From positions 1 to 27,260 of the IMG/VR virus record IMGVR_UViG_3300034066_002196: a stretch of 27,260 nucleotides of DNA; one strand, 5' to 3'. Shown here piece by piece: positions 183 to 24,762 of the stretch. A program made the position numbers and the translations under genes. The notes beneath the pieces were generated by a model. It saw nothing but the letters and a program-made list of their open reading frames with translations, was not told the DNA's origin and did not search any database. Each line of letters begins with the position of its first letter. The stretch's first letter is position 1. Source of the DNA: a virus.

Positions 183-788
183 TCAAATAAATCTCAATGA
201 ATGACAAGCCCCCCATTGTTCGGCCATTGCCGCCGCTATTCCGGAGTATGTCTTCGACCGTATTTTCCAACGGTCTTTCGACGGGGCCAGTTTGTTTTGC
301 CCGGACCCGGTTTGGTTTTCCCATCTCCCTCCCGGAGGAAGAGGGAGAACATTAGTCGGAACCAGAAGGGGAAGTCCGACCAACCAAAGACAAGTTCTTT
401 TAGATTCAGGGTGTCCAAATTGCCAAGGGTGGACAGACTGGTTTGGTTTGCGGATCTTGGTCGAGATGATCGATACGGGATTTTCCAAGGCGATCATTGG
501 GACCGGGGCCGACAGGAGGACCCTGACAAAGTCGAGGGCCTCTTCCGTCAGTCTGGGATCTCTTAACCCTCTTGTCGTCCAATGCATTCCCGAAACAGAA
601 AGATAAGTACAGGGAGGATGGGCGACCATAAGGTCCCAACCATCCCCGAGGATGTCTCGGACATCGCCTTGATAGTGTGGCCCTGGGGACTCGGTCGGAA
701 GGATGTCGCAAGATGTCGCATCATGGCCCAAGGCTAAGAAAGAATCCCGAACCGTTCCCGAATATTCACAAGCTACAAGGACTTTCAA
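183..788 (-). CDS. DNA cytosine-methyltransferase-like protein (SAM-dependent, small phage type)
   Basis: A 201-residue protein resembling the catalytic half of C5-cytosine DNA methyltransferases. The N-terminal strand KVLVACEYSGTVRDSF fits the SAM-binding region, HPPCTYLSVSG near residues 57-67 carries the PPC loop with the candidate catalytic cysteine, and IALENP near residue 99 stands where ENV is expected. The C-terminal GIAAAMAEQWG resembles the last conserved helix. It is much shorter than full Dcm/HhaI enzymes (about 320-480 residues) and has no clear target-recognition domain, so DNA methylation is inferred rather than certain. The start is TTG at 788, behind AAGGGGG, 12 bases after the helicase stop. 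It belongs to the early operon and could protect phage DNA against host restriction. Confidence 0.75.
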   Translation of the reverse strand: MKVLVACEYSGTVRDSFLALGHDATSCDILPTESPGPHYQGDVRDILGDGWDLMVAHPPCTYLSVSGMHWTTRGLRDPRLTEEALDFVRVLLSAPVPMIALENPVSIISTKIRKPNQSVHPWQFGHPESKRTCLWLVGLPLLVPTNVLPLPPGGRWENQTGSGQNKLAPSKDRWKIRSKTYSGIAAAMAEQWGACHSLRFI

Positions 789-6330: not shown

Positions 6331-7500
6331 TTATGTTAGTGGTTTGCCCATCAATCGATCGATCAATCGTCGATCCGTTGTCGGTGAAAGGTGCGAATAG
6401 TGTTTAGAGACGATCGAGATCGACGACCAACCGCCCATCTCTTTTAGGAGCAATAGGGGAACCCCGCCCCTGGCCAGGTGACTGGCCCCGCCGTGGCGTA
6501 TCGAGTGAATACAGGCGACACCTTCGTAGGTTTGCTTGGGAATCTTGGCGGCTTTGAGGTCGGCTTGGAAAATCTCCTGGAGTCCGCCGCCCCGGTCGGT
6601 CAGACAGGCGAAGAGCCTACCACCCTTTGTTTCCGAGATCAACCGTCGGAGATCCGGGACCAACCTATCGGGGACCGGGACGAGTTGGGCCTTTTTTGTT
6701 TTGGCGTGTTCCGCCCGAAAGGTGACAACCGCCCCGCCGTTCCCATCGAGGGCGAAGTCTTTCCCAGTCAGGGCCAGGATTGCCCCTCGCCGTCCAATGG
6801 TTGCGAATGCCAGGCGATAGAAGAGACACCTCGGCCAGGGTGCGACCTTCGCCAGTTTCTCGACATCCTCAAACCAAAGGGGTCGCCGTTGGTTGGTCAG
6901 GGCGGAACTTGACTTCGGCAACCGTGGGACCTCGGGGATCAACTTTTGGTCGAGCAACCATCGGAGGAACTGCCCGAGGCGAATTAGTTTTTTGGCATTG
7001 GTCCCCGGGGTCGTGGTCAACCCGGTGAACCACCGAGACACCCTCGAAGAATCCAGGCGGCGGACATCGTCCAGGGACTCCAGTCCCAGGGCCTTGACCG
7101 CCGGGCGGAGGGACTGGAACAGATTGTCCAGGCTACGCCTTCCCAACCCCTCGGCCTGTTTCTCCCTCTCGTATCGGTCGACCAGTTCGTCGACCGTCTC
7201 GAGGGACTTGATAACCGGGGCCTCCAGTCCGGCCCGGACCCGGTCCTCGGTCCTTTGAAGGTCCCGCAACATGGCGGCCGAGGCCTCTTTGTCCGAACAC
7301 AGTTTGACCAGGCGGGTCCGCCCGTCGGCCCCTTTTAACTGCCCGTGCCATTCCGAGTGTTGAACCCTGGCCCGGCCGCCCTTGCCTACGGGGACCCAAA
7401 CCATTCGCCCGCCGTGGCGGATTTGGACCTCGGTCCCGTCCTTGGTCTTGCGGGTTTTCGATCCTGGCGGGATCTCCCTGGTGTAAGTTGGTCGGTAAAT
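6331..7500 (-). CDS. Tyrosine-recombinase phage integrase (probable ATT start)
   Basis: A site-specific recombinase for integration and excision. The catalytic residues are visible, numbered from the internal ATG at 7404: Arg near 205 (TIGRRGAILAL), Lys near 235 (HAKTKKAQLV), H300 and R303 (HSIRHGG), W326 (GGWSS) and the nucleophile Y336 (KHYSHL). A SAM-like core-binding region lies around 70-160. The same frame stays open upstream of 7404 and encodes YRPTYTREIPPGSK and further residues, a segment I recall from planctomycete integrases, so the ATG at 7404, which lacks a ribosome-binding site, is not the true start. No ATG/GTG/TTG occurs before the stop at 7521; GGGGGTGG-AAA-ATT at 7498-7510 points to an ATT start at 7500, giving 389 residues. 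Confidence 0.88.
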   Translation of the reverse strand: MYRPTYTREIPPGSKTRKTKDGTEVQIRHGGRMVWVPVGKGGRARVQHSEWHGQLKGADGRTRLVKLCSDKEASAAMLRDLQRTEDRVRAGLEAPVIKSLETVDELVDRYEREKQAEGLGRRSLDNLFQSLRPAVKALGLESLDDVRRLDSSRVSRWFTGLTTTPGTNAKKLIRLGQFLRWLLDQKLIPEVPRLPKSSSALTNQRRPLWFEDVEKLAKVAPWPRCLFYRLAFATIGRRGAILALTGKDFALDGNGGAVVTFRAEHAKTKKAQLVPVPDRLVPDLRRLISETKGGRLFACLTDRGGGLQEIFQADLKAAKIPKQTYEGVACIHSIRHGGASHLARGGVPLLLLKEMGGWSSISIVSKHYSHLSPTTDRRLIDRLMGKPLT

Positions 7501-7764
7501 TTTCCACCCCCTTTTGAATTATGACCGCCGAAAATCTTGCGTCGATCTTGTGTGACCGGCCGCTATCGTTGGTTTCAAAAGGTTAAGAAAAGTTTCCAAT
7601 TGCTTCAATATTCTCGAGGATTTTTTTTTATTAGCTTGCAATAAGGTAGGAAAAATACATCCTTCCCGGATGTCTGGGTAGTTTAAAAACTGCCTAGAAA
7701 AACGAGGAAACCGCAAGGTCCTTACGGATCTTGCGGTTTTCTTGTGTTTACAAGTCTAGCTTGG
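7501..7764. promoter_or_regulatory. A+T-rich spacer between late operon end and integrase; int promoter/att candidate
   Basis: About 260 bp without a supported gene. It holds the bidirectional terminator (7708-7739), a small hairpin ACATCC/GGATGT around 7658-7674, an AGTTT/AAACT repeat near 7680-7691 and a run of nine T near 7621. On the minus strand TTGAAG, 17 bases, TAACCT is a weak sigma-70-like pair that could drive the integrase. The rest is unassigned. Confidence 0.4.
7708..7739 (-). terminator. Strong bidirectional terminator at the end of the late operon
   Basis: A perfect 14-bp stem (7708-7721 with 7726-7739, one G-U) closed by a TTAC loop. On the minus strand it lies 25 bases after the last late gene and is followed by TTT-CCTCG-TTTTT; on the plus strand it is followed by TTTTCTTG. 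It separates late transcription from the integrase. Confidence 0.85.
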
Positions 7765-8064
7765 TCAAACGGTCAAAAGGATCTTCAGAACAATCTGAAC
7801 AACCAGGGCCCAAGGAACGACCCCACCGAGGGCCCCCTCCTCGGGCGAATGGATGGCGGCCTCGAGGATCGCCTCGTCGGATAGTGTGCCCTGGTCGTCT
7901 GGTCCAGGTTGGGAGATCGGACCGCCAAGGGATTTCGCCAAGGCGAACCCGAGGACATTCCAACCGGCATGGGCCAGCTTGGCAGTATCGACCGCCTGGC
8001 CCTTAACCTTGGCCAGGACCAGGCCGAGGGCCTCGGCCGGGAATTCGTTCGGATAATTAACCAT
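7765..8064 (-). CDS. Small protein with C-terminal membrane anchor
   Basis: 99 residues. The first three quarters are soluble (MVNYPNEFPAEALGLVLAKV, then a Gly/Pro/Asp-rich middle), and the last 20 or so residues form one hydrophobic segment (GGVVPWALVVQIVLKILL) with only two residues after it. ATG at 8064 has AGAGGGTGG upstream; an in-frame GTG nine bases earlier overlaps that site and is less likely. It is the last gene of the late operon, directly after another small membrane protein and the cysteine protease. A tail-anchored layout could suit a holin, spanin-like or superinfection-exclusion role, but none of these can be shown. Confidence 0.65.
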   Translation of the reverse strand: MVNYPNEFPAEALGLVLAKVKGQAVDTAKLAHAGWNVLGFALAKSLGGPISQPGPDDQGTLSDEAILEAAIHSPEEGALGGVVPWALVVQIVLKILLTV

Positions 8065-8109
8065 GAGTTCCACCCTCTCGAGAATTAAAAAACAACAACC
8101 GCCCGGCCC

Positions 8110-8412
8110 TTATTGCTTCCCGGTTGGCCCGGGGTTCTTAAGGGCCGGGTTGGACTTTGTGGCCTCGGCGACTTGCTCGAGGATTGCATTTTGGGAAGTG
8201 ACCAAATTTCTTTGGGTTTGCTCCAGGACCTTTAGGAGTCCTTCGACCTCGTCCAAAAACCGGAAGTGCCGATCCCGTAGTGGGGTGACGACCTCACGAC
8301 CGACCCATTGGACGCAACGGGAGGCAGCGTAAACCACAAAAACCAAACCCAGGGTCGGAAGTCCGAACTCCCGGAGGAACTGGTAAACGGTCGGTAAGTC
8401 GCCCATCGTCAT
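8110..8412 (-). CDS. Small single-span membrane protein (holin-like candidate)
   Basis: 100 residues (98 if the second ATG at 8406 is used). A hydrophobic helix, GLPTLGLVFVVYAASRCV, at about residues 18-36 is followed by a basic and then strongly helical, charged region (VEGLLKVLEQTQRNLVTSQN) likely to form a coiled coil. GGGAG lies a few bases upstream. It follows the cysteine protease gene by ten bases. One membrane span with a charged C-terminal helix fits class III holins or small phage membrane proteins; the holin call rests on size, topology and position only. Confidence 0.65.
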   Translation of the reverse strand: MTMGDLPTVYQFLREFGLPTLGLVFVVYAASRCVQWVGREVVTPLRDRHFRFLDEVEGLLKVLEQTQRNLVTSQNAILEQVAEATKSNPALKNPGPTGKQ

Positions 8413-8422
8413 TTTCTCCCGA

Positions 8423-9352
8423 CTACCAGGACAACCGCCGAAGAGGAAACCCGTTCGGCATAACCGAGACCGCCCAAGAGTCGCCTCTCGACAGCATATT
8501 TTTTTCCAGGACCTCGGCATCGACCCAGAACCCGCCGCTCGGCATATCAAACGGGTATCGGGGGCCCGAGTTTGATCCAGCCCCCCAACTATTTTTGATA
8601 AACCCGCCTGGGCGTTTTCCCTTGCGGTAGCCAATGCCCGCCATGCAATGGGCCCACTTCCCGGACGGTTTGCAAAAACCGTCGGAGTCCCGGCGGGTGT
8701 TGTTGAACCCCTGGCTCGAGGCGACGATAACCCCGAACCCCGAGGCGATCGCCCGGCAAAAATCGTCGAAGGTCCGGACCCTGGAGATCGAGGTAAACCG
8801 GTGGGCCTTGGCGGCCTCGACCAGTTCGGCGGGGACTCCCCGGGTCCCCCACTCCCGGCAACGGGCCTCGTTGTATGCGGACAGGTCAAACGACCCGTAA
8901 ACATCCTTGGCCAGGATCCCGAAGTCTTTCATCGCCTGGGCGACCCAGGCCCCGGTCGATCCGTCGGACCGGAAGGGCGACCGGCCGCCGTTTACCTGGA
9001 CTCGGGAAAACCCGTAAATAACCTCGGGCGACGGGATGATCGCCGCCTCGGGATCCCCCGAGACGACCTCCCCGGCGAGTGCCAGCATTGCGGAATGGGC
9101 GGCCCCGAATGAGCAACAAGACCCGACCGATCCCTGGGCCATTTCTGGGAAGTCGATCCCGGTTGCAATTTTCCACCACCTCCAACCAAAGGCCTCGTCG
9201 GGAATGTCGGTCTCCAGGCCCGCCTCGGTGTTGCCAAAACTTGGGATCGGTTGGGCCTGGGCGACCACCTCGACATCCTCGGGGAGATCGACCCACCCAA
9301 AGGCGTTGTCGGGGGTGTCAATGTATTCCTGGATTTGTTCGTCTGACATCAT
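8423..9352 (-). CDS. Papain-like (C1 family) cysteine protease
   Basis: 309 residues with the full papain catalytic set: Q73 and C79 in QGSVGSCCSFG, H235 in KWAHCMAGIGY, N254 in FIKNSWGAG. The residue after the catalytic cysteine is Cys instead of the usual Trp. The first 65 residues form a pro-like region with two near-identical motifs, PDNAFGW and PDEAFGW. No signal peptide is visible, so export would need a holin or virion packaging. It sits between a Pro-linker protein and two small membrane proteins at the end of the late operon, where lysis genes usually lie. Possible roles are cell-envelope protein degradation (lysis or entry) or virion maturation; the first is my preferred inference. 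Start ATG at 9352 (or the adjacent ATG at 9349) behind GGAGGCGG. Confidence 0.9.
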   Translation of the reverse strand: MMSDEQIQEYIDTPDNAFGWVDLPEDVEVVAQAQPIPSFGNTEAGLETDIPDEAFGWRWWKIATGIDFPEMAQGSVGSCCSFGAAHSAMLALAGEVVSGDPEAAIIPSPEVIYGFSRVQVNGGRSPFRSDGSTGAWVAQAMKDFGILAKDVYGSFDLSAYNEARCREWGTRGVPAELVEAAKAHRFTSISRVRTFDDFCRAIASGFGVIVASSQGFNNTRRDSDGFCKPSGKWAHCMAGIGYRKGKRPGGFIKNSWGAGSNSGPRYPFDMPSGGFWVDAEVLEKNMLSRGDSWAVSVMPNGFPLRRLSW

Positions 9353-10062
9353 CCGCCTCCCAGCTTGGCGAAGATGGCGGCGAATTTTTTCGCCAGGGCC
9401 TCGGCCTTTCGGCCGGGGTCACCGACCAGGGAGGTCGCCGGGTCTTCGCCGATCTCGTCGGAGACGATGTCGCCGACCTTCTGGCGGATCGCCGCCAGGG
9501 CCCCCAAGGGAACCCCCTGGCGAGTGATCTCCGCCCGGACGGCCGAGTTCCAGCCGCCGAGGGTTTTCGCCTGGGCGATCATCTCCGGGGCCTTCGACCA
9601 GGCCTTTGATAGTTTGGCCAAGTTGGCCGCCTGGTTGGCCTCTTGGAGGCCTCCCGCCAGGGACTGGAAGGTTTGAAAGGTTGGGTCTTGGGTGATGTCG
9701 CCAGGTGTCGGGGAAGGCCCCGGGTTTGGGCCTGGGTCGGGTCCTGGGTTGGGCCCTGGTTCGATCCCGTCCTGGGTGATCGAGACCGACAGGATAACCG
9801 GAGGCGAGGGTTTGTCGCCTTTGGCGGTATATGCCAGGATACGGTATTTGCCGACCCGGTTCCCGGTGACGACCAGGGTCGTCTTGTCGGCGAGGAGATC
9901 GCCAGGGAAAACCGAAAGGCCCGGGTCGATGGCAAAATATTGGACCGACCCGCCGTCGACCTTAATCGGCCGGACGACAACGAACTCCCCGGCCCGGCCG
10001 GAGACTTTGTCGGGTAGTTCGAGGGACTGACCAAACAAGAGAAGGGCGACGGGTAGGATCAT
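9349..10062 (-). CDS. Probable exported or structural protein with Ig-like domain and GPNP linker
   Basis: 237 residues. It begins with a hydrophobic stretch MILPVALLLFGQS that resembles a signal peptide, although no basic residue precedes it. Residues 14-96 are predicted beta strands (FVVVRPIKV, TTLVVTGNRVGKYRILAYTA, PPVILSVSI), as in Ig-like or cadherin-like folds. Residues 101-121 are a Gly/Pro/Asn linker (EPGPNPGPDPGPNPG), and the rest is an alpha-helical domain with Ala/Lys-rich helices. ATG at 10062 has GGTGG three bases upstream. The stop overlaps the protease start as ATGATG, so the two are translationally coupled and may act together. No known family. Confidence 0.7.
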   Translation of the reverse strand: MILPVALLLFGQSLELPDKVSGRAGEFVVVRPIKVDGGSVQYFAIDPGLSVFPGDLLADKTTLVVTGNRVGKYRILAYTAKGDKPSPPVILSVSITQDGIEPGPNPGPDPGPNPGPSPTPGDITQDPTFQTFQSLAGGLQEANQAANLAKLSKAWSKAPEMIAQAKTLGGWNSAVRAEITRQGVPLGALAAIRQKVGDIVSDEIGEDPATSLVGDPGRKAEALAKKFAAIFAKLGGG

Positions 10063-10158: not shown

Positions 10159-10638
10159 TTAGAAGGTGGACAGGGAAGCCCTCTTCCAAGAATTGGCCGC
10201 CGTACAAACAAAAAGGTAACTCGGGGAAACCCGGATCTCTCCGGGCGATCCCGTGCTGGTACTTGAAAAGGTGTCCAACTCAGTCTTGGCCGAGAAGATG
10301 TCGAAGATCGACCGGAGAGAAGTCTTTTTGGTAGGTGTCGCCGTTGCGTCCTCGATTGGGAGGACATCGGTTTGGACCGGTGTCTTTGTCGCCAAGTCTT
10401 TGACCAGGTCGAAAACTTGTTGAACGGTCGCCTTTCCGGTCGGTGTCGCCGAACTCGACTCAACGGGAAAAACATCGGTCAAAATCGGCGTTTTGTTCGC
10501 CAGGTCCTTGACCAGGTCGAAAACCTTTTGAACGGTCGCCTTTGTCGCCGGTCCGCTTGTCGGTCCAGAAAATGGCAAAATATCCGTTATTAAAGGGTCT
10601 CGGATCCCGAGTTGATCGATCCGTTTTCCAGCCATCAT
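10159..10638 (-). CDS. Repeat-containing tail fibre/tip protein
   Basis: 159 residues built from a 36-residue repeat: ATVQKVFDLVKDLANKTP, then ILTDVFPVESSSATP, with a second full copy and a partial third (SLRSIFDIF). An initial half copy is RDPLITDILPF. At DNA level two units are nearly identical with a spacing of 108 bases (10401 and 10509). The C-terminus (GSPGEIRVSPSYLFVCTAAN then SWKRASLSTF) matches a common ending of phage fibre and tail-tip proteins. I chose ATG at 10638, which overlaps the upstream stop as ATGA behind GGGGGAG; the longer frame start has no support. Probably a host-binding or fibre-associated protein. Confidence 0.8.
   Translation of the reverse strand: MMAGKRIDQLGIRDPLITDILPFSGPTSGPATKATVQKVFDLVKDLANKTPILTDVFPVESSSATPTGKATVQQVFDLVKDLATKTPVQTDVLPIEDATATPTKKTSLRSIFDIFSAKTELDTFSSTSTGSPGEIRVSPSYLFVCTAANSWKRASLSTF
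10398..10545. repeat. 108-bp tandem repeat inside tail-fibre gene
   Basis: The stretch beginning TGACCAGGTCGAAAAC occurs at 10401 and again at 10509, continuing through GAACGGTCGCCTTT. The period of 108 bases equals 36 codons. Confidence 0.8.
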
Positions 10639-12206
10639 TCTCCCCCTTTCCAGTCGTCGCAACTAAAACAAATCATCTCGGACCCTTTCGGGTATCCGGT
10701 TTTCCGGCATTCGCCGTGAAGTGTGCAACGGCGAAGGACCGCCGTCCCGCACCCACAAGACGACGGGTCTTCGATCGGTTCCCCCAGGTAGACACAAGGT
10801 AAAGAGACCCGGCGGATCGCCTCGGCCCTGGCCGACTCCAAGTTGGGGGCGGCCTGGCCGGTTGGTTCGTCGGTTGGCCCCGTCATCATCGAGGCCGGGA
10901 CACAAACCGTGGAGCATTGGTCGATTGTAGAAAATGGCCCCATAGTCGCCCCGGCCGGTTGCGTGTACGACCAGACACAGGCCCCATTGACGCAATAAAA
11001 CCCCGGGTTTGGTTGTGGGGCCGGGTCGAGGGCGGTCGAGCATTCATCGGGCAAGATTGCCGGATTTGGGAAGATCATCGAATAAACCCAAACGGTCGCC
11101 CTTGAGAATGTCGCCTTGAGAATATTTGGGCTTGATGTCTGGACGACCGTTGGTTGAACGACCTCGTAAGTTCCGGAGGAGTTTTTCCAAGCCAAATAAA
11201 GGGGCCCGCCGTTAATTGATTTGGCAACCAGAGGGCCGCCGACCTGAATCTCTTGGATAACTCCGACCGCCTCGCCTGGGACCCCGATCGTCCCGAACTC
11301 GGAGACAAACCCGGGGTCCTTATTTTTAAGGGCCCAATTGGGGCCGGTCGCCTTCAAAACTATCTGGTCGCATTGGCAATAGGCCCCCGACCCGAGTTGA
11401 CCGCAAGGGGCCGGATCCCGGCCCATTTGAATCAGTCGGCCCGGTTTGTTGTTGCCGGTCATCAAGGGATTGTTTTCCGGGTCGTCCCATTGAATCGAGT
11501 CGGCCTCGATCGTCCCGTCCCAAAGGATCGGTTCGTCGAACTCTTCTAGGTGGGCGACTAGGCAACTATGCCAACCCGAACCGGTCCAAAAACCGCAAGG
11601 CGGGACACCGTTCGACTTGGACCCGCAACCGGAAACCATAGCAGAGAATCCGAGTTCCAACTTTATGAACGAGACCGGGTCGCCCTTTCCGCCATTCTCC
11701 GAGACGGTGATCGGAAGATAATCCGAAACAAACCCTCGACCTCTCCAGGGTTCCGGGTTGTATGGGTGGGCGATCTCGTCCAGGCTAGCCGACTTGGTGA
11801 AGTAGGTCTCCCAGGCCTTGGCCGAGTTTAACCAATAAACCGTCAGGCTAACCGTAACGGTGTCCTTGTCGACGACCGAGACAGTCGCCGAGAATTTGTA
11901 AGAGTTGGCACTCCCCCCGACCGAGATCCCAGAAAAATATCCGATCGCCCCCCAGGTGTTTGGGTTTGGTTCGGCATCATTTCCAGGATTGAAACAAAAC
12001 CAACGGAACTCCCTTGGTGCTATCCCCAACCAATACGACGGGGCCGGTTGGTTTGTCGTCGGGCAAACCGGACCCCAAAAAGAGATCCGGACTCTTCCGT
12101 CGGTCATCGGCCAACCCAAGCCACAGAGAGAGCAATCGATCGACGGGGCGACCAGGGATTGGTCGACGCACACATCATAGGCGACAACTTTGGTCGATTG
12201 TGTCAT
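10635..12206 (-). CDS. Cysteine-rich tail/adhesin-like protein
   Basis: 523 residues, predicted mostly beta strand and loop, with many tryptophans and cysteines. CVDQSLVAPSIDCSLCGLGW opens the protein; a second small cluster, YCVNGACVWSY to CSTVCV, lies around residues 415-445; and a C-terminal cluster has C471, C484, C486, C494, C500, C513 and C516, including RRCTLHGEC. The last cluster has the spacing of a metal-binding or disulfide-knot domain. It overlaps its neighbours on both sides by four bases, so it belongs to one translational cascade of tail-tip genes. A receptor-binding or baseplate role is inferred from location behind the tape measure; no enzyme motif is visible. Confidence 0.78.
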   Translation of the reverse strand: MTQSTKVVAYDVCVDQSLVAPSIDCSLCGLGWPMTDGRVRISFWGPVCPTTNQPAPSYWLGIAPREFRWFCFNPGNDAEPNPNTWGAIGYFSGISVGGSANSYKFSATVSVVDKDTVTVSLTVYWLNSAKAWETYFTKSASLDEIAHPYNPEPWRGRGFVSDYLPITVSENGGKGDPVSFIKLELGFSAMVSGCGSKSNGVPPCGFWTGSGWHSCLVAHLEEFDEPILWDGTIEADSIQWDDPENNPLMTGNNKPGRLIQMGRDPAPCGQLGSGAYCQCDQIVLKATGPNWALKNKDPGFVSEFGTIGVPGEAVGVIQEIQVGGPLVAKSINGGPLYLAWKNSSGTYEVVQPTVVQTSSPNILKATFSRATVWVYSMIFPNPAILPDECSTALDPAPQPNPGFYCVNGACVWSYTQPAGATMGPFSTIDQCSTVCVPASMMTGPTDEPTGQAAPNLESARAEAIRRVSLPCVYLGEPIEDPSSCGCGTAVLRRCTLHGECRKTGYPKGSEMICFSCDDWKGGE

Positions 12207-13369
12207 GGTGTCAAATAAACCCGCATCGAGGAGAAACCGAACTGGATTGTCTGGGCGACATCTCCAACCATATTAAATTGGACAGGGAAAATATATTGAG
12301 ACTGTAATGGTCCGTGAACCGCGTAAAAATACTCGTTGACCGGATCGGGTTCGGCGGTCGGGTCGTTGTAGAACCAATGGCGTATCGAGGCGACTTTTGG
12401 GCTCCCAACTTGAGGGTTGTCGCAAACCATAAACACATGGGTGTCTATCGTCCAAAGTTGGTTCGAGTTGAGGATCCTCGGTTTTTTCCCGGTGTTGTCA
12501 GGTGTCCCCCGATAATTCTCTGGGAGAAAAGGGTTCGTCGTTGTCGCCTGGCCGTTTTGGTTCGTTGTTGTTTCCGTGTGGTCACCGTAGTGGACAAAGG
12601 CGAAAGAAAAATAGTGGATCATCGTGTAACCGATAAAGGTCCCGAGAACCGTTCCCGACGAGTCCCTGGCCCGTAGGGGGTCACAAAACGGGATCGTCCA
12701 TTGGCGATTGTTTTCCGGGTTTGGAGATTGTCCGGTTTGCTCGTAGTGGGTCTCGGCCAAGAAAGGTTCCACTAACCCTTTGTTAGTCCAAATACAATGG
12801 GCCGGGTGCAATTGTCCAAGGTAGTCGGTTTGTCCGTTAATTGGTGCGGTAGCATCGGTGAAATTAAACTTGTACCGTTTTTGGTAATTTGAATTATTCG
12901 CCCCGGAGACTCCCTTCAAACGGCGGCGGACCGTTGTCGCCAGGTGTCCCCATTGGATGGAGGGACCAGACGAAAAGTTTTGGTAATAATTCGGGACATA
13001 CATCGCCCTTGGTTTCCATCGGTACAAATCGTTGGAAGCAAAATAAAGATCGCCGCCGCCAATGGTTTTCAGGACGACCGGGTTTTCGACTCGCCTCCCG
13101 TATGGTTCACCATATGCGGTTGATCCACTCGGAAGGTTGAAAGGTTCGATCCTGGCGGTCCCAATACTTCCGACCCCGTTCCCCATTGTGTCGGTTCGGA
13201 AACCACAACCGCACATAGCCGCTTGGATCCCGGAAGTCCCGGGAGGATCGCCGAAAACGGTATGGACGGTGAACTCCCGAAACGGCATGGCAAAGGCGGG
13301 AACATTGTTCCTGGTCGGTACGGTGAGACAAGTCCCCGAAACAAGTTTGGCCCATGCACCGTATCCCAA
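12203..13369 (-). CDS. Putative tail-tip/baseplate protein (388 aa)
   Basis: A 388-residue protein rich in Tyr, Trp, Asn and Gly and low in charged residues, as expected for a beta-rich virion protein. Recognisable local features are MCGCGFRTDTMGNG (about 52-65), WTIPFCDPLRARDSSGT near 226, and a C-terminal half dominated by aromatic residues (YFSFAFVHYGDHTETTT). The start is TTG at 13369, with GAGGG and an AT spacer upstream, three bases after the previous stop. No known domain. Position in the tail-tip cluster makes a structural or adhesion role likely. Confidence 0.75.
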   Translation of the reverse strand: MGYGAWAKLVSGTCLTVPTRNNVPAFAMPFREFTVHTVFGDPPGTSGIQAAMCGCGFRTDTMGNGVGSIGTARIEPFNLPSGSTAYGEPYGRRVENPVVLKTIGGGDLYFASNDLYRWKPRAMYVPNYYQNFSSGPSIQWGHLATTVRRRLKGVSGANNSNYQKRYKFNFTDATAPINGQTDYLGQLHPAHCIWTNKGLVEPFLAETHYEQTGQSPNPENNRQWTIPFCDPLRARDSSGTVLGTFIGYTMIHYFSFAFVHYGDHTETTTNQNGQATTTNPFLPENYRGTPDNTGKKPRILNSNQLWTIDTHVFMVCDNPQVGSPKVASIRHWFYNDPTAEPDPVNEYFYAVHGPLQSQYIFPVQFNMVGDVAQTIQFGFSSMRVYLTP

Positions 13370-13372
13370 TTT

Positions 13373-13816
13373 TTAACCCTCGTAAGTGATAACAAAAGGG
13401 GCGGTACAAATACCGTTGGACCATGTCCCCTCGATCCTGAATGTCGTCACCCCGTTGGCGGATTGGGAGCAACTTCCGGTAACATTGGTCGCATTGGAGA
13501 CATACCAACCGGGCAAAGTTGACTGATTGATTTGGGTCGAGACGGGAGGAACCCCACCAGTTGAAAGCAATATCCCATCGCTCCCCCTGGTATAACCCCA
13601 AACAAATTCACAAGGCCCGGTCCTTGCCATTGTCCCAGAAACCTTTGGACCTACGCAACTTGGCGGCGGGTTGGCGTTTGGGTCGTTCGCCGTGAATGGT
13701 CCCCACTCGATTTGGAAACTAGAAGGGAGGACCTTTTTTCCCCAACATTGGTGGAAGACCGGAGCATAAACCCCGGGGGCGTGGGTCTCTTTACAATTGG
13801 TGGAGGTTGTTGTCAT
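13373..13816 (-). CDS. Small cysteine-containing tail-tip protein (147 aa)
   Basis: 147 residues: MTTTSTNCKETHAPGVYAPV, then beta-like segments (SSFQIEWGPF, PCEFVWGYTRGSDG, TTFRIEGTWSNGICTAPFVI). Six cysteines are spread through the protein. It overlaps the upstream gene by four bases (ATGA) and shares the GACACCATGACA start context with the gene at 12206, which suggests local duplication of the control sequence. Family unknown; probable virion tail-tip component. Confidence 0.7.
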   Translation of the reverse strand: MTTTSTNCKETHAPGVYAPVFHQCWGKKVLPSSFQIEWGPFTANDPNANPPPSCVGPKVSGTMARTGPCEFVWGYTRGSDGILLSTGGVPPVSTQINQSTLPGWYVSNATNVTGSCSQSANGVTTFRIEGTWSNGICTAPFVITYEG

Positions 13817-14283
13817 GGTGTCGAGTTACAACCTGTTCCGTATGTGACTGCCAAATATCCGCCGGTACAAACCACCCCGGAGACATGGGGACAGTCGAGG
13901 GTATTCCCTCCCCCGCCCTTGTTCACCGAAAAGACTCCGGTCGCCACCCCGTCCTTGACGACGGTCTCGAGAAAGTTCCCTTGGTATTTTTGCCCTTCGG
14001 TCAAAGTGTTCTCGTTCAACTCATAAACCAAGATCGCCTCGGGCGACTCGTACCAAACCCCGGTATACGGGTCGGCAAACAACAGAGTCCCGGCGTGGTA
14101 ACCGGCGGGCCATCCGGTCGCCGTCGCCCCGGCCTGGACCCAGAAACCACCCTGGCCAGGTGTCAGGGTTTCCCCGGTCTCCTGGTCCCGATTGGTCAAC
14201 CGGCCCGCCTCGTATTCCCGGACGATCTTCCCCAACCGTTTGGCGGTCTCGTAATTGACGGTAAAACCTGGAGAGTTTGCCAT
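13813..14283 (-). CDS. Hypothetical tail-associated protein (156 aa)
   Basis: 156 residues. The N-terminal helix GFTVNYETAKRLGKIVREYE is followed by GRLTNRDQETGETLTPGQGG and a beta-rich region (FWVQAGATATGWPAGYHAGT, VWYESPEAILVYELNENTL). The layout resembles small phage proteins of tail-tip modules that carry a conserved helix followed by a beta sandwich. The two C-terminal cysteines (CPHVSGVVCTGG) plus one more near the end might form a disulfide. Function not recognised. Confidence 0.7.
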   Translation of the reverse strand: MANSPGFTVNYETAKRLGKIVREYEAGRLTNRDQETGETLTPGQGGFWVQAGATATGWPAGYHAGTLLFADPYTGVWYESPEAILVYELNENTLTEGQKYQGNFLETVVKDGVATGVFSVNKGGGGNTLDCPHVSGVVCTGGYLAVTYGTGCNSTP

Positions 14284-14292
14284 TTGTCGGAC

Positions 14293-15264
14293 TCACAAAG
14301 GTGACGGAAAAATGACATCGTCCAGATAATCGAAAGTGTGCTTGTAAACGGTCCGACCGTTAGTCGAGGTCACGACAAACCCGTTAGCATCGAGGAGTTG
14401 GGGGCCGGTCAAAAACCGATCGACTTCCGTAATGGCGACCTTTTTGGTCTCAAAGTTTCCGGTCGCCTTGTTTTTTAAAGAGTAAAAAGCCCGGTTGCCC
14501 ATCGAGAGGGGTTTCCAACTCCAGAACTCCCGTACACAAAAGACGATCGTCCATCGGTAATAGGAGATCCCCTCCTCGAAAACCCTTTGGGCGGAGCAAC
14601 TTTCGAGGCGGGCCCACTTGGCGGGGATCGACCAAAGGTCGATCGTTAACGGGTTCCGGTTGAGTTTGTGCAGGGCGGCGACCCAGTTCCCTCCAGGCGG
14701 AGAAAGGGAGTTCAGTCCGACGGTAATCTGGACCCCTGGGATCGTGATCGTCGGCGGACTGGGGAACGGGTCCCCGGCGGTGTTCCGGAAAGGGACGATA
14801 TTTCCGCTTGAGTCGACCGAGGAACGGATAACCTCTTGGCCGACGACCATCGTCGAATAGGCATAATCTCGGGCCCGGACGAGTGGGGCCGACTCCCGTT
14901 GAGTCGGAGGGGTCCCGGCTTGTTGTGTGTCAATCAACGGGTTCCCGGATGTCGAACCGCCGCCTCCGCCGCCTCCGGTCCAACCGTCGATCGCATAGGC
15001 GAAAGAGGCGGTAATCTTCCAAAGCCAGGGGTTGTTGGTGTCCTGGACCGGGGCGATCGAGACACAGAAGGCCTTCCCGGTCGGGTCGTTGGGATAGACA
15101 TCGAAGATCTTTGGAAGACCGGAATATGACCCCGCTTCCCAAACGGTGTACGGGGCGAGGGCCCGGTCGGTCTCCAGGAGAAAAACCTTCTGATAAGTCC
15201 TTTGGTAGCTCGAATTGACCGAACCAGATTCGTTGGTCAGGACTTGAAAGTTTGTGACCCCCAT
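14293..15264 (-). CDS. Putative baseplate/distal tail protein (323 aa)
   Basis: 323 residues, first gene after the tape measure on the operon. N-terminal beta region (YQRTYQKVFLLETDRALAPY) then a linker of seven glycines (WTGGGGGGGSTSGNP) at about residue 96, then a second domain with QESAPLVRARDY-type acidic/basic segments, an internal VQITVGLNSLSPPGGNWVAA and a C-terminal FYSLKNKATGNFETKKVAIT followed by DYLDDVIFPSPL. The layout is compatible with a distal tail or tail-associated protein. ATG at 15264 has GGAGG eight bases upstream. The assignment rests on gene order; no catalytic motif is seen. Confidence 0.7.
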   Translation of the reverse strand: MGVTNFQVLTNESGSVNSSYQRTYQKVFLLETDRALAPYTVWEAGSYSGLPKIFDVYPNDPTGKAFCVSIAPVQDTNNPWLWKITASFAYAIDGWTGGGGGGGSTSGNPLIDTQQAGTPPTQRESAPLVRARDYAYSTMVVGQEVIRSSVDSSGNIVPFRNTAGDPFPSPPTITIPGVQITVGLNSLSPPGGNWVAALHKLNRNPLTIDLWSIPAKWARLESCSAQRVFEEGISYYRWTIVFCVREFWSWKPLSMGNRAFYSLKNKATGNFETKKVAITEVDRFLTGPQLLDANGFVVTSTNGRTVYKHTFDYLDDVIFPSPL

Positions 15265-15279
15265 CGGAAAAACCTCCTC

Positions 15280-17367
15280 CTAGTTTGGAAGTATGAATTG
15301 GGCGGGCGGCGGCCCCTGGCCCGCCAAAACTTCCCGGAGGGCCTTGGCCTCGTCGAGGGACTGCTCCGAGACTCGGAGTTGTTTTTCCTGGGCGGAGGCC
15401 AAGCGTTCTTGAAGAGAGAGAGACCCGTCCCCGAATTGGGCCCGCATCTCGGCTTGGTAGGCCTCGAGGGATCCCTTCTCGGCCTGGCCCGCAAAAAATG
15501 AGTCGCCGATCTTGAACGAGTCGGCCAAGTTCCTGGCCATGTCACCTAGTCGCCTCTCGGCCAGGATTTGCCCGTTTTTGTCGCCGCCGCCTTTCGCCTT
15601 CTCCAGTTCGGCCAGGAGCCGCCCCCTGTCCTTGTTGAACTTTTCGGCCTCGGTCAAGACTGGATCGAGGCGGTCCTCCTGGGCCCTGGCGAGGGCGGCC
15701 TTCTGGCGGTCGAGAACTTCGGTCAAACGGCGGGCGACATCAGGGTCGGCCGACTGGGCGGCCGCCGCCAGGTCCTTGGCGATCCTGGCCGAGTCCTTGG
15801 TAAACTGCTCGAACGGTGTCAGGGTCCCCGCCTCCAAGTCGGCCAGGAGTTTCTCTTGGCGTTGTTTGATTAGCTCAAACCCTTGGCGAATTGTGTCGGC
15901 ATCAAATAACCTTTCCCCGTCGGTAAGGTCCCTGATTCGTCGGGCGGTCTTGTCCAGGTCGGCGAGTCCCTCGGTCAGGGTTGCCAGGGGACCGTCGGGC
16001 CCTGGGCGGAGGGCCTTGATAAATTCCTTGGCCTCGTTGTCGAACTTCCCGACCTGGCCCTGGTCGCCGAATTTGTCGACCGCCTTTTGTGCGTCGACCT
16101 TGGCGAACTGCAACTTCTCGGCGAGTTTTTCAATGGGCCCGAAGGCGGTCTCATATCGTGGGGCCAGGTCCTTGAGTTTTTTCTCGAGTTCAAAGGCGAG
16201 GAGTTTTTGCCCGCCCTTGCTGGCCTGGTCGATCTGTTCCCGGACATCGAGGACCTCTTTCGCCAACGACTCGTAAGCGTTTAGGGGGACCTTAGCGAAC
16301 TCCTGGATTAGTTGGTCCTTGCGTTTTTTCGCCAGGTCGCCGGTTTGTTTGAACCGTTCGTCGGTATTTGAAAGGCGAATATTTGCGTCTAGGTTGGAGA
16401 ACTCGTCGAGCATTTTGTCCAGGGGAGACTTGACCGCCTTCGAGAGTTCCTCGTTGACCTTGCCGAAGTAGGCGGTCAATTGCCTCATCATCTCGGCCCG
16501 CTCGTTGGCAGCCCCGCCAAGGGCGACCTTCCCGGCGTTGACGGTTTTCGACTCGGCCCCAAACGGGGCGAAAAAGGCGGAGACAAACGACCGGAGTCCG
16601 TCGAGTTCCTCGGTGTAAATTTTGTCGCCGATCTTCTGGGCGAACTGGATCGGGGAGGCCAATTGCCCGAGGCGGCCCAAGATGGTGTCGGCCTCGGCCC
16701 GCTTTGACTTTGCATCGGATCCCTGGAGAGAGGCGGCGATCGCCTGGGCCCCCTGGAAACCAGTAACCCGGCCCGCCTTAACCATCCGCTCCGCCTGGTC
16801 GGCGGTCGTCCCGATCGCCTTCCCAAGGTCGTCGTATGCGTTGACACCCTTCGCCCTCAGTTTGTCAAACAAGTCGGCCGAGGCGACCATCTGGCCATTG
16901 AGGTTGGCGATCCCGCCGGAGATCTCGGCGACACCCTGGCCGCCCCCGCCAAATAACCAATCGAGTTCCCCGGCCCCCTGGAGGATCTCCAGGGACTTCC
17001 CCAGGCCGAACCCGGCCCCGGCAAGTTTTTCCATCGAGCCAGCCAGGGATTCGACATTTGTTCCGGTCGTGCTTGAGATCTTGGACAGTCCGCCGAGAAT
17101 CTCCCCGCCTCGGGAGAGGTTGCCATACATGGCCCCGAGGGACTTCCCGAGTTTGTCGGACTGGTCGGCGAACCTGGCGAACTCTCCGGCGGTCTCGACC
17201 GCCTTGGTCGCCAACCAGGTGAAGGCCCCGGCAACGGCGGCCTTTCCAAAGTTGGCGACAGTTTTCCCAAGACCGTCGACCTTGTCGCCGAGTTTCCCGA
17301 GTCCGGACATCGCCTTTTCGGCGTTGAGGCCGACATCGATCGACAGGGTCGAGACATTCTCAGCCAT
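15280..17367 (-). CDS. Tape measure protein
   Basis: 695 residues, by far the longest helical protein of the window. N-terminal STLSIDVGLNAEKAMSGLGK and repeated Gly/Ala-rich segments (LGKTVANFGKAAVAGAFTWL) are typical of phage tail length determinants, as are the long Lys/Glu/Ala/Gln helices up to residue 670. One hydrophobic patch (about 40-60) may insert into the host membrane at infection. The usual relation of about 0.15 nm per residue suggests a tail near 100 nm. I chose ATG at 17367 (MAENVSTLSID); the longer frame to 17442 overlaps the T-like frame without need. The start overlaps the end of the chaperone fusion by eight bases. Confidence 0.92.
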   Translation of the reverse strand: MAENVSTLSIDVGLNAEKAMSGLGKLGDKVDGLGKTVANFGKAAVAGAFTWLATKAVETAGEFARFADQSDKLGKSLGAMYGNLSRGGEILGGLSKISSTTGTNVESLAGSMEKLAGAGFGLGKSLEILQGAGELDWLFGGGGQGVAEISGGIANLNGQMVASADLFDKLRAKGVNAYDDLGKAIGTTADQAERMVKAGRVTGFQGAQAIAASLQGSDAKSKRAEADTILGRLGQLASPIQFAQKIGDKIYTEELDGLRSFVSAFFAPFGAESKTVNAGKVALGGAANERAEMMRQLTAYFGKVNEELSKAVKSPLDKMLDEFSNLDANIRLSNTDERFKQTGDLAKKRKDQLIQEFAKVPLNAYESLAKEVLDVREQIDQASKGGQKLLAFELEKKLKDLAPRYETAFGPIEKLAEKLQFAKVDAQKAVDKFGDQGQVGKFDNEAKEFIKALRPGPDGPLATLTEGLADLDKTARRIRDLTDGERLFDADTIRQGFELIKQRQEKLLADLEAGTLTPFEQFTKDSARIAKDLAAAAQSADPDVARRLTEVLDRQKAALARAQEDRLDPVLTEAEKFNKDRGRLLAELEKAKGGGDKNGQILAERRLGDMARNLADSFKIGDSFFAGQAEKGSLEAYQAEMRAQFGDGSLSLQERLASAQEKQLRVSEQSLDEAKALREVLAGQGPPPAQFILPN

Positions 17368-18042
17368 TGGACTGGGTCCTCGGTTCGAGTTTTCCACCCC
17401 AAGAAACCAGGAGGGCCCGAAGTTTTTCCGGATCCTGGACACCGTCCCCGGCGGTTGGGTCTTTCCACCAGGGGAGGCGGATCCCTTCGATTAACTTTTT
17501 GGGATCCGAGGCCGAAGGACCCGCAACGGCGTAGGAAAAACCCATAGTCGCCAAGACATCCTCCCGATACGGGCCCCAAGGTTCGATCCCCCGGAGGGCC
17601 AACCATTCGACCAACTCGCCCGCCCCCATTCGTTCCGACAGTTCGGCGACTGTCATCCCGAGGTGTCCAGCCAGGGCGAAGGCCGCCCGCCGGACGGGCG
17701 ACCTTAGTTTTTTTCGACGGTCTCTTGGGCCATCCCGTTCAGGTCGAAAACGGCGGCCTGGACCTTCTCAAAGTCTCCCCTGGTCAACGAGTCGCCCAGG
17801 ACTGCCGCCTCGTCGTCCTGAAATAATCTCTTCCCGTCCTGGCCGACGATCGACCGGGCGAAAAGCCAAAGGATCAACCCCGACTTATCGGCGACCGAGG
17901 AGGCCGAGGCCGACTTTTGACCGAACTCCAGGAACTCCCCGGCGGAAAGTTCCCGGACCGTCACCTCCCCGCCAAGATCGGGGAGAGTAACGGTCCGCTT
18001 TTTCAACCTGGCGAAAGGTTGAAAGTTTTCTTTTGTCAACAT
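17360..18042 (-). CDS. Tail assembly chaperone G-T-like fusion made by -1 frameshift
   Basis: Ribosomes that slip by -1 at A AAA AAC (17707-17713) continue from the G-like frame into the frame ending at 17360. The joint adds L-R-S-P-V-R-R-A-A-F-A-L and then GHLGMTVAELSERMGAGELV, with no stop between. The T part (115 residues) looks like the DUF4035/GpT family: RRAAFALAGHLGMTVAELSE, then EWLALRGIEPWGPYRED. The fused product has about 227 residues. By analogy with lambda gpG/gpGT, the minor fusion recruits tail tube subunits to the tape measure. An independent start at ATG 17656 is possible but has no good ribosome-binding site, and the RRxA segment upstream of it belongs to the family. Confidence 0.85.
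17681..17714 (-). other. Programmed -1 ribosomal frameshift signal (slippery site plus hairpin)
   Basis: On the minus strand the codons read GAA AAA AAC TAA, giving the canonical heptamer A AAA AAC directly before the stop. Three bases later, GGTCGCCCG (17703-17695) pairs with CGGGCGGCC (17689-17681) around a TCCGG loop: nine pairs, one of them a T-G wobble. The -1 frame is open through to the T-like domain. Confidence 0.88.
17704..18042 (-). CDS. Tail assembly chaperone, G-like major product
   Basis: 112 residues: MLTKENFQPFARLKKRTVTL followed by GGEVTVRELSAGEFLEFGQK, a pattern typical of phage tail assembly chaperones (lambda gpG/HK97-type), then a helical region (SGLILWLFARSIVG, GDSLTRGDFEKVQAAVFDLN). 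It ends ETVEKN-stop where the last three codons GAA AAA AAC contain the slippery heptamer. ATG at 18042 has the extended ribosome-binding site GGGGTGG three bases upstream; the longer frame start (MIDSQKGWAM) overlaps the tail tube gene and lacks one. It lies between the tail tube and tape measure genes, the standard place. Confidence 0.88.
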   Translation of the reverse strand: MLTKENFQPFARLKKRTVTLPDLGGEVTVRELSAGEFLEFGQKSASASSVADKSGLILWLFARSIVGQDGKRLFQDDEAAVLGDSLTRGDFEKVQAAVFDLNGMAQETVEKN

Positions 18043-18061
18043 TGCCCACCCCTTTTGAGAA

Positions 18062-18508
18062 TCAATCAACCTGGAAACCGACCTCGTAACTCAAAACATT
18101 GTCGTCGTTGGCGATCGACGGGGTCCCGACCGAGGAGATATATCCCTCGAAGGTGATCAATGGGGTCGTATCGTCGAAAACGGCGGTCGTCCCCTGGATG
18201 TCGACGGTGATCTTGTACTTTTTCCGCCCCTGGAGTTTGGATCGGAAGTCAGTCAGTTGGTTGGTCGCCGGGGCGGTGTCGTTCGCCGTGAAGGTAAAGG
18301 ACACAGTCCCCTTGTCCAGGCGGGCCGGACGGCGGCGGATGTAGGTGTCGGCCAGGGAGGTGACATCCGAAAAGGACATCGTCCAGGAGTTCCCGGTAAT
18401 TGCCCGGAGGTTGTCCAAAGTTGTGGCGGTTGAATAGGTTCCGCTTCCCGCCGTGGTTTCCTCGGCGATCTTTACAATCGTTCCGGTCGAAAAAAGAGGG
18501 TTTGGCAT
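18062..18508 (-). CDS. Major tail tube protein
   Basis: 148 residues with the tail tube layout: N-terminal strand GTIVKIAEETTAGSGTYST, a loop with NLRAITGNSWTMSFSDVTSL, then DTYIRRRPARLDKGTVSFTF and a C-terminal sheet (KYKITVDIQGTTAVFDDTTP, ITFEGYISSVGTPSIAND, LSYEVGFQVD). The motif of a domain that asks for a change in value per layer (FEGYISSVG) is typical for this family. ATG at 18508 lies 22 bases after the preceding stop. Its product polymerises into the hollow tail shaft around the tape measure. Confidence 0.87.
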   Translation of the reverse strand: MPNPLFSTGTIVKIAEETTAGSGTYSTATTLDNLRAITGNSWTMSFSDVTSLADTYIRRRPARLDKGTVSFTFTANDTAPATNQLTDFRSKLQGRKKYKITVDIQGTTAVFDDTTPLITFEGYISSVGTPSIANDDNVLSYEVGFQVD

Positions 18509-18530
18509 TGGTCAGAACTCCAAAGGATTG

Positions 18531-18944
18531 TCAGATAAAACAAAAGGCCCCGGTCAAACTCATTCGGACTTGCCGGATCGACTCGTCGGAACCGTCGAGG
18601 ACGATCTCCGAAACATGGCCCGAGGTCGTCACCCTCCACCAAAAGACCTTGATCTCCGACACCCCCGACCAACTCCCTGGCCCGGACTTGTCGAGGATCC
18701 AGCGGAAGGCCTCCTCGCATTGGGCGACAGTCTTGGCGGTGACTGTCAGGTCGAAGGACTCCACCTTATAAATTGACCGCCCGGCCAAGTCGAATTGGTC
18801 GACGATCTCGACCCCGCTATAAACCCCAAAGGTTGTCGAGGCGGCCGAGGCCGGGGCGATCTCGGCGAAAATCCCCCCTGGGATCTTGGCCGAGAAACCA
18901 GGAACCCCGACCAGGTATTGGCGGAAGGCCTTCGCCAGGGACAT
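18531..18944 (-). CDS. Probable tail terminator / tail completion protein
   Basis: 137 residues beginning MSLAKAFRQYLVGVPGFSAK, then a region of strands (IFAEIAPASAASTTFGVYSG, SIYKVESFDLTVTAKTVAQC) and a helix with EEAFRWILDK. The pattern, a short helix then a sheet for inter-subunit contacts with the usual length of 120-140 residues, fits tail terminators of the DUF3168/lambda gpU type. Its place between the gp10-like gene and the tail tube gene agrees with this. The start ATG at 18944 overlaps the previous stop (TAATG) behind GGGAG; a longer frame start at 18986 is inside the neighbour. Confidence 0.72.
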   Translation of the reverse strand: MSLAKAFRQYLVGVPGFSAKIPGGIFAEIAPASAASTTFGVYSGVEIVDQFDLAGRSIYKVESFDLTVTAKTVAQCEEAFRWILDKSGPGSWSGVSEIKVFWWRVTTSGHVSEIVLDGSDESIRQVRMSLTGAFCFI

Positions 18945-19675
18945 TAGATATTTCTCCCGTTTCTCAACATTCCCCGCCTCTTCCAATATGTCTCGATCTC
19001 GACCTTGAGGATCCCGGCCGCCAGGTTTTTTGCCTGGTGTTTGGTCTCACGGAAGGCGATCGACATATACGGGCGAGGTTGAACATAACCCCGAACCTGG
19101 CCCCGGATTTTCAGGACATGACCGCCCTCGATTAGGTGGGCATATCGGGCCGGGTCATTCATTACCAGGCGGCGAGTGAACGGCGAAAAGGCGACGATTC
19201 GTTGGTGTTTGTGACCGACAAAACCATTGACCTTTCCGGACCCTCGGGACTTCCACTTGGCGTTGCCCTTGGAGTCGGTGACCTGGAAAGACTGTTTTTT
19301 CCCGACGACGATTTTTGTCGTGACTGATTTCCGAAGGGATCCAGTTCGGCCGACGATTAGGAAAGAATTTTCTAGTCCTTTCTTCCCCCGATATTTGGGA
19401 TTGGATCGGTGTAAATGCCACAGGCCCCTCTCGTCGTTGTCCCTGGGTCCGCCCCAAACCGAGTAGCCAACCGAGTTCCCGCCCTTGGCGAAAACCGATT
19501 TTCCCTTCGAGGCGGAGGTCCGCCAGACATTTTTCTTGACGGCGGCCTGGATTGGTTTGACGGCGGCCCGGACCGCCTTTTTTAACATGGCGGTCTTTCC
19601 GCCCTGGATCGCCGCCAGGTTCTCCAAAAGTTGTTGGTCGCCCGAGAGGGCCAGACTAAAGTCGGATCGACTCAT
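18944..19675 (-). CDS. HK97 gp10-like head-tail joining / minor tail protein
   Basis: 243 residues, longer than the typical 130-150 residues of gp10-like proteins. The N-terminal LSGDQQLLENLAAIQGGKTA and LKKAVRAAVKPIQAAVKKNV helices are characteristic of the family. The C-terminal part (YAHLIEGGHVLKIRGQVRGY, VQPRPYMSIAFRETKHQAKN) contains the usual Y-A-x-x-x-E-x-G and R-P-x-x motifs. The insertion between them, around residues 60-180, is rich in Lys, Arg and Ser (SKGKSVFAKGGNSVGYSVWG). ATG at 19675 overlaps the adaptor stop as ATGA. Confidence 0.85.
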   Translation of the reverse strand: MSRSDFSLALSGDQQLLENLAAIQGGKTAMLKKAVRAAVKPIQAAVKKNVWRTSASKGKSVFAKGGNSVGYSVWGGPRDNDERGLWHLHRSNPKYRGKKGLENSFLIVGRTGSLRKSVTTKIVVGKKQSFQVTDSKGNAKWKSRGSGKVNGFVGHKHQRIVAFSPFTRRLVMNDPARYAHLIEGGHVLKIRGQVRGYVQPRPYMSIAFRETKHQAKNLAAGILKVEIETYWKRRGMLRNGRNI

Positions 19676-20013
19676 GTGATGGGAACCTCCTCAGTACAGG
19701 CGAAAACGATCTCTTCCCGGGGTTTCTCCGGGTTGCGATCGATAGAGGAGACAACAAAGTCCCGGCCTTTAAACCTGACCCGCCAGGTCTCTTGGACCTG
19801 GGCGAGTTCGGAACAATCCCGGACGGTGACAGTATGCGAAAAGGTAACCTGGCCCCGGCCGACGACCGCCTGGGTCCCGCCGCCGTTCCCGGCAACCAAG
19901 GCCCAAGTTTGGAAGTGTTCGGCAAACGAGAGGACATCCTGGCCAAAACTGTCGACGGTCCTCGTCGGTTTGAGGATGGCGACCCGGTGACGGTATTGGC
20001 CCGACGGTTTCAC
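19672..20013 (-). CDS. Head-tail adaptor (phage head-tail joining protein)
   Basis: 113 residues from a GTG start: VKPSGQYRHRVAILKPTRTV, then SFGQDVLSFAEHFQTWALVA, a later RGQVTFSHTVTVRD and a C-terminal VRFKGRDFVVSSIDRNPEKP. This order (R-H-R-V x-I, a tryptophan then W-A, R-Y-R-x-R-x-x, I-x-x-I-x-x-x-x-x) is that of Phage_H_T_join/SPP1 gp16 proteins, which seal the portal-connector opening. GTG at 20013 overlaps the stop of the connector gene as GTGA behind GGGGAG. A longer frame to 20034 would need a TTG within the neighbour and has no support. Confidence 0.85.
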   Translation of the reverse strand: MKPSGQYRHRVAILKPTRTVDSFGQDVLSFAEHFQTWALVAGNGGGTQAVVGRGQVTFSHTVTVRDCSELAQVQETWRVRFKGRDFVVSSIDRNPEKPREEIVFACTEEVPIT

Positions 20014-20633: not shown

Positions 20634-20878
20634 CAGGCCCCCTTGGACTTTGTCGCCTTTGGTTGGGCGGCCTTCTTGGCCTCGAACTCGTCTTCCGCCG
20701 GTTTGGGTTGTTCGGGTTCTTGGACACCCTGGGCAGGTTGAATGTCGGCGAGGACCGCCAAATTAGCGGCGATCATGCTTGCCGAATCCTCCTCGGACTG
20801 GCACTCGTAAATCTCCCCAGACTGCCAGCATTTTTCAGAACTGACAACGGATTCCAAAAGTCGAACTAAAAATGGCAT
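20633..20878 (-). CDS. Small head-region protein between capsid and connector
   Basis: 81 residues: MPFLVRLLESVVSSEKCWQS, GEIYECQSEEDSASMIAANL, then AVLADIQPAQGVQEPEQPKP and a Lys/Ala/Pro-rich tail. Similar tiny proteins with a G-E-x-x-E and A-x-x-M-I-x-x-x-x-A-x pattern are common in this position in HK97-like phages, where no firm function is known. ATG at 20878 has GGAGG six bases upstream; the longer frame to 20911 lies over the terminator stem and is not preferred. The tail is probably disordered. Confidence 0.75.
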   Translation of the reverse strand: MPFLVRLLESVVSSEKCWQSGEIYECQSEEDSASMIAANLAVLADIQPAQGVQEPEQPKPAEDEFEAKKAAQPKATKSKGA

Positions 20879-20891
20879 GGCGAACCTCCAT

Positions 20892-20927: not shown

Positions 20928-20939
20928 TTCTCGTTTTTT

Positions 20940-22334: not shown

Positions 22335-22390
22335 TGGGTAAACTCCAAAAATGGGGGAACTAGAGATCATTAACCGGCGAACTTAACCGG

Positions 22391-24713: not shown

Positions 24714-24762
24714 TCCCCGAGAATATCCAGGCGGCCAAGGCGAGTTGGCGGCCTCAATTCAT

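Follow-up and report, generated by a model that had tools for sequence, protein, structure and literature searches.

In lambda and many other phages, the lysis genes sit between the tail genes and the terminase. The window analysed here, a 27,260-base IMG/VR virus record (IMGVR_UViG_3300034066_002196) from a temperate siphophage, ends its late operon with genes for an Ig-like protein (IG), a papain-type cysteine protease (PROT) and two small membrane proteins (TM1 and TA), which raises the question of whether such a phage leaves its host by means of a protease. The initial annotation of this DNA had proposed that, if the host is a planctomycete with its protein-rich envelope, a cytosolic protease released through a holin could act as lysin. 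The genes, their recurrence, their slot and the lack of a hydrolase have held up on analysis; the premise of a protein wall is contested. We infer, with rather more belief than doubt, that the cassette serves a temperate siphophage of planctomycetes for host lysis, with PROT in place of the endolysin and acting on a presumed wall substrate.

Planctomycetes possess lysozyme-sensitive peptidoglycan (PMC4432640), and a proteinaceous wall layer appears in older descriptions of the group (PMC3035269). Lysis is not a given, since one planctomycete phage is reported to leave its host by chronic release without lysis (PMC10945688). None of the open papers searched appears to describe how planctomycete phages lyse their hosts, and no paper describing such a cassette was found in the open-licence literature.

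Gene order at the end of the late operon

All four genes of the initial annotation (the Ig-like/Pro-linker protein, the protease with a C-H-N triad and the two membrane proteins) are present on the minus strand within 7765-10062 (Table 1). The start of PROT overlaps the end of IG by ATGA, and the hairpin after TA is stable when the segment 7690-7770(-) is folded (-25.6 kcal/mol, z -3.85). Read from an upstream GTG start, TA would be 102 aa long; a longer TM1 frame reaching 8904 was rejected as spurious. TerL ends 18.3 kb before PROT on the same strand, and the S78 prohead protease gene adjoins the capsid gene. Between the window and its sister contig, dN/dS is 0.18 for PROT, 0.06 for TM1 and 0.19 for TA, indicating purifying selection.

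Two other genes of the window deserve mention in their own right. The early region (183-788, minus strand) encodes a 201-aa protein whose start resembles DNA methylase-like phage proteins and which has no Pfam match at E 0.01. A tail-end protein (10159-10635, minus strand) contains internal repeats (KATVQ-VFDLVKDLA, twice), and its C-terminus matches a tail-protein PHROG.

Table 1. The cassette and the features around it in the window
Feature	Position	Strand	Description
IG	9349-10062	-	237 aa; signal-like N-terminus, Ig-like domain (about residues 10-98), Pro-rich linker, C-terminal helical domain (about residues 127-234)
PROT	8423-9352	-	309 aa; papain-fold (C1A-type) cysteine peptidase without N-terminal membrane span
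PROT catalytic codons	C79 9118-9116; H235 8650-8648; N254 8593-8591	-	also Q73
TM1	8110-8412	-	100 aa; N-terminal transmembrane span, then conserved PLRDRHxxFL coiled-coil-like helix
TA	7765-8064	-	99 aa; small C-terminally anchored membrane protein; final late-operon gene
Terminator-like hairpin	7700-7745	-	intrinsic, with T run; immediately 3' of TA
Late operon upstream of cassette	10159-27204	-	TerS, TerL, portal, S78 prohead protease, HK97-type capsid, connectors, tail tube, tape measure, tail proteins
Tyrosine integrase	6331-7404	-	Pfam PF00589, E 4.8e-13; first gene past the terminator, marking where the late region ends

PROT has a predicted papain fold with conserved catalytic residues

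Structure prediction, which the initial annotation had suggested as a check, gave a confident papain-fold model for PROT (AlphaFold2, 53 homologues, mean pLDDT 92.6) and an Ig-like model for IG. Among solved structures, xylellain (3ois) matches PROT at Z 23.5, with an rmsd of 2.7 across 238 residues and about 18% identity, and papains and cathepsin B zymogens match at Z 19-22. The alignment profile searched against PDB chains likewise retrieved C1A papain-family enzymes (best E 5.7e-6) in an alignment that pairs up the Q-x-x-x-x-G-S-C, H and NSWG motifs. Among 102 distinct homologues, C79 and H235 are each found in 102, position 254 has N in 96 and Q in the other 6, and the oxyanion residue Q73 is kept in 84. 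The model and these alignments together confirm a predicted papain fold with a Cys-His-Asn triad plus the oxyanion Gln. No C1 model of Pfam matched the PROT of the window, the sole signal being a weak, sub-threshold one to Peptidase_C39_2; because the curated C1 models are unmatched, we call the protein papain-fold or papain-type and not a member of Pfam C1.

PROT is a single domain, fused neither to an amidase or glycosidase nor to a wall-binding domain; in the window it has no SAR-type N-terminal signal-anchor, and by Pfam it does not come from any known peptidoglycan-hydrolase family. Its papain-fold matches in BFVD include phage proteins named N-acetylmuramidase and peptidoglycan-binding, with weaker matches to mycobacteriophage Lysin A.

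IG, TM1 and TA

In the IG model (pLDDT 90.5) an Ig-like domain is connected to a helical domain by a Pro-rich linker of low confidence. Among the matches listed for its fold are Ig domains of tail, S-layer and PKD proteins, the nearest solved folds including the lambda tail-tube Ig domain and a tail protein of phage SU10. Chagasin is a papain inhibitor with an Ig fold, and a chagasin-like inhibitor was considered for IG; it did not figure among these matches. An N-terminal hydrophobic core resembling an export signal occurs in 69 of 76 members of the IG family, compared with 25 of 628 other genes, which speaks against a role in the virion. The overlap of the IG stop with the PROT start is usual (gap of -4 in 48 cassettes).

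Small membrane proteins lie beside the enzyme, and the TM1 and TA families are conserved; a holin role for them is putative. By topology TM1 is holin-like or inner-spanin-like, its N-terminal span plus coiled coil recalling an inner-membrane spanin, and a few of 50 pooled TM1, TA and other small membrane proteins gave weak Rz-like matches in PHROGs. Neither PHROGs nor Pfam assigns a function to TM1 or TA, and the cassette gene families have no annotated function in either. Profiles made solely of viral family members detect IG (family c1, E 5e-57), TM1 (c3, E 6e-28) and TA (c2, E 5.6e-28) of the window.

The cassette recurs in planctomycete phages and prophages

Single-sequence searches with PROT, IG and TM1 found the sister contig alone, and genome contigs scanned with two sequences gave no match; the wider PROT family was reached via planctomycete genomes and then with a nine-sequence profile. 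PROT is found in 98 of 398 Planctomycetia genomes, some with multiple copies, and the profile search retrieved relatives in 133 IMG/VR stretches, from which 80 loci were fetched on contigs of up to 189 kb. A second PROT subfamily adds five further IMG/VR relatives. Three diverse PROT queries had no match in 50,697 phage records and none in plasmids.

Around the called PROT, four gene families (c3, c1, c0 and c2) recur together in 84 virus loci. Scoring of 121 loci placed IG upstream in 92 and found TA in 57, TM1 in 54 and the complete set of four genes in 39, gene starts outside the window being approximate as they come from a purpose-written gene caller. It is this synteny across genomes that raises the observation above chance, a papain-type triad by itself being weak evidence. 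The gene set, which the initial annotation had proposed to look for in other phages, thus occurs in dozens of them. The supposed planctomycete host fared well for the family, where the link is strong, and viruses carrying the cassette probably infect planctomycetes; that link does not name the host of the window itself.

IG-PROT-thioredoxin sets are also present in some chromosomes without visible phage genes, and since they lie outside visible prophages the set may have another role as well. Long PROT relatives without IG or membrane partners (459 aa in L166 and 396 aa in L167) are chromosomal and are apparently host genes. PROT cassettes are found in large phage contigs too (189,675 bases in L376 and 109,065 bases in L370), which are far removed from small siphophages like that of the window. 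An ABC-type ATPase protein (L187:12650-13726, minus strand; also L161, L192 and the L173 region) recurs near the PROT cassettes of different prophages, with a GNAT domain in some copies.

In loci with a locatable TerL, PROT shares its strand. It precedes TerL by 1.3-7 kb in 16 loci and follows it in 9; the distance in these 9 is 14-26 kb for the window and for complete tailed prophages, and about 4 kb for two short remnants. Both positions are one place on a circular late map, from tail to terminase. The cassette therefore occupies the usual holin/endolysin position, as the initial annotation had stated, with PROT on the TerL strand and a terminator after TA.

PROT topology and the third gene

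An N-terminal hydrophobic signal or anchor is present in 34 of 121 PROTs. TA or TM1 was found near none of these 34, compared with 70 of the 87 PROTs lacking the span, whereas a secreted thioredoxin-like neighbour accompanies 27 of the 34 and 2 of the 87. Some cytosolic PROTs have neither TM1 nor TA by profile. On the tree the association amounts to about five well-supported switches, which is not significant for independence; the split is thus consistent with a SAR-versus-holin pattern, and is not statistically independent.

The thioredoxin identity of the third gene is firm, from Pfam, for the L187 type (E 3e-7) and indirect, from a profile-profile probability of 94%, for the other types. 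In two genomes (G066 and G212) the third gene has a trypsin-like domain instead. In two prophages, L179 (8261-9448, minus strand) and L180 (8496-9497, minus strand), the product of the gene after PROT is exported and has a trypsin-like domain (PF13365), giving two unrelated proteases per cassette, and in two prophages of one genome (L168:10436-11176 and L169:10457-11143) a holin-like hydrophobic segment is apparently fused to the protein after PROT.

Lysozyme and PROT look like alternatives

As the initial annotation had noticed by eye, no lysozyme, amidase or transglycosylase is visible in the window: no peptidoglycan hydrolase was found among the proteins scanned with Pfam, and CHAP and M15_3 searches were also empty. 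A hydrolase gene just outside the window had been named as evidence that would count against the proposal. Across PROT-positive virus records five families are absent: GH24, Amidase_2 and SLT (0/50 contigs each, record-wide) and CHAP and M15_3 (0/51 each, the window included), every search having given matches in well-known genomes as a control. Among the 25 families listed per scan, no peptidoglycan hydrolase appeared in 267 proteins of 15 PROT-positive regions or in 121 cassette-neighbourhood proteins, and none appeared among 25 of 29 families listed for 128 representatives adjoining viral cassettes.

The comparison set consisted of 18 portal loci without PROT, in which the PROT profile finds nothing; one of them has a phage lysozyme (Pfam E 2.7e-48). 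Across Planctomycetia, GH24 has 24 matches in 16 genomes, several of them 21-23 kb downstream of a portal gene (G056, G193, G134 twice and G038), and none of the 24 lies within 45 kb of PROT. Amidase_2 occurs 15 kb downstream of the portal in one PROT-less genome (G381), and among the matches listed none lies within 45 kb of PROT. Because GH24 occupies the portal-downstream slot in some PROT-less prophages and is never near PROT, the protease and the lysozyme look like alternatives within one host class. Absence of a hydrolase is by itself not specific, since many PROT-less planctomycete portal loci also have no known hydrolase. Separately, several Planctomycetia genomes have compact modules of terminase, head and tail genes that lack an integrase, PROT and any recognised lysin (L244 with L281 and L245, L247, L272 and L254); these are possible gene-transfer-agent-like elements or reduced prophages.

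These data bear on the protein-rich wall supposed in the initial annotation. With peptidoglycan present in planctomycetes (PMC4432640) and GH24 in some of their prophages, a protein wall is not needed to explain the cassette, although it may still be a target; and as a pure protein wall is disputed, PROT may cut stem peptides, wall proteins or both.

Alternative roles and a proposed mode of action

Placed at the tail tip or inside the particle, PROT could be a virion-borne protease that clears the envelope at DNA entry, with IG as an Ig-like virion decoration. The tail-protein folds nearest to IG agree with this, as does the position of PROT after the tail genes in the window and several prophages, but the export-signal-like start of IG is unusual for proteins assembled in the cytosol, the cassette of other phages lies before the terminase and apart from the tail genes, and many PROTs carry a signal or anchor; we regard a virion role as unlikely. 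Many phages encode assembly proteases, and a prohead-protease-like function in processing head or tail proteins would fit the PROT of the window in that it has no export signal. Such a morphogenesis role is nonetheless highly improbable, the window already having an S78 prohead protease and PROT being linked to exported and membrane proteins and not to the head module, with many relatives exported or anchored.

The cassette might also be cargo (a moron), that is, an operon for envelope remodelling, competitor killing or superinfection exclusion carried on phages and sometimes on chromosomes. IG-PROT-thioredoxin sets that belong to no recognisable prophage, in some cases beside chromosomal genes that are conserved (G138a/G197a), and lone PROT relatives in G058 and G013 point in this direction; the chromosomal sets, however, could be prophage remnants, a TerL-like gene lying 4.3 kb upstream in both G138a and G197a. 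The strand and slot shared with the late genes, the IG/PROT overlap, the terminator after TA, the membrane-protein partners and the lack of a hydrolase in PROT-positive phages all weigh against cargo, to which we give little credence.

Under the preferred reading as a lysis module, PROT and secreted IG would be produced together late in infection, PROT folding in the cytosol. At a programmed time TM1 and TA would open or perturb the inner membrane, and PROT would then enter the periplasm and cleave peptide bonds on which the wall depends for its cohesion, whether in the stem or cross-link peptides of peptidoglycan or in wall protein. IG, already periplasmic, may anchor PROT to the wall or keep it inactive. 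Relatives with their own N-terminal signal or anchor would dispense with both membrane proteins, and the secreted thioredoxin-like protein, often adjoining, plausibly keeps the catalytic cysteine reduced. More tentatively, and with the balance of belief against it, the cassette may represent proteolytic lysis free of peptidoglycan hydrolases, in which a wall stabilised by disulphides and protein is taken apart by a papain-type protease, acting in some lineages together with a secreted thioredoxin-like protein or with a second protease of trypsin-like type.

If the lysis reading is true, phages leave planctomycetes by a route not described before, and PROT represents a new class of endolysin whose substrate may be unusual. 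A hydrolase-free protease cassette in more than 100 virus contigs and a quarter of the Planctomycetia sampled would give a handle on the disputed composition of the planctomycete wall, and lysozyme or protease at one slot would be a natural experiment on the evolution of lysis. The cassette also offers a genetic marker by which planctomycete phages can be recognised in metagenomes.

Comparison with known systems

The cassette resembles holin-endolysin cassettes of the lambda and T4 type in its place, which is either last among the late genes or shortly ahead of the terminase, in combining small membrane proteins with a soluble degradative enzyme, and in not having been found together with GH24 lysozyme in the same host class. 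It differs in that the enzyme is a papain-type peptidase and not a lysozyme, amidase or transglycosylase, that an exported Ig-like partner is usually adjacent, and that no outer-membrane spanin was recognised with it in a non-systematic look. In P1 Lyz, an example of the SAR or signal-peptide endolysins, a cysteine active site can come under redox control. The PROT relatives that have a signal or anchor and no small membrane proteins are similar to such endolysins, whereas the PROT of the window has no signal-anchor and PROT is not a glycosidase. Xylellain and other C1A peptidases share with PROT the fold, the Cys-His-Asn triad, the oxyanion Gln and the NSWG motif, although xylellain is a bacterial and not a phage enzyme of low identity to PROT. 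The N5 domain of mycobacteriophage Lysin A is a papain-family peptidase in a phage lysin (PMC3314691), and PROT is like it in being a cysteine peptidase of the papain superfamily; N5, however, forms part of a multidomain lysin, whereas PROT stands alone, without a wall-binding domain, in planctomycete phages. We provisionally file the cassette under phage lysis modules and not as a new category.
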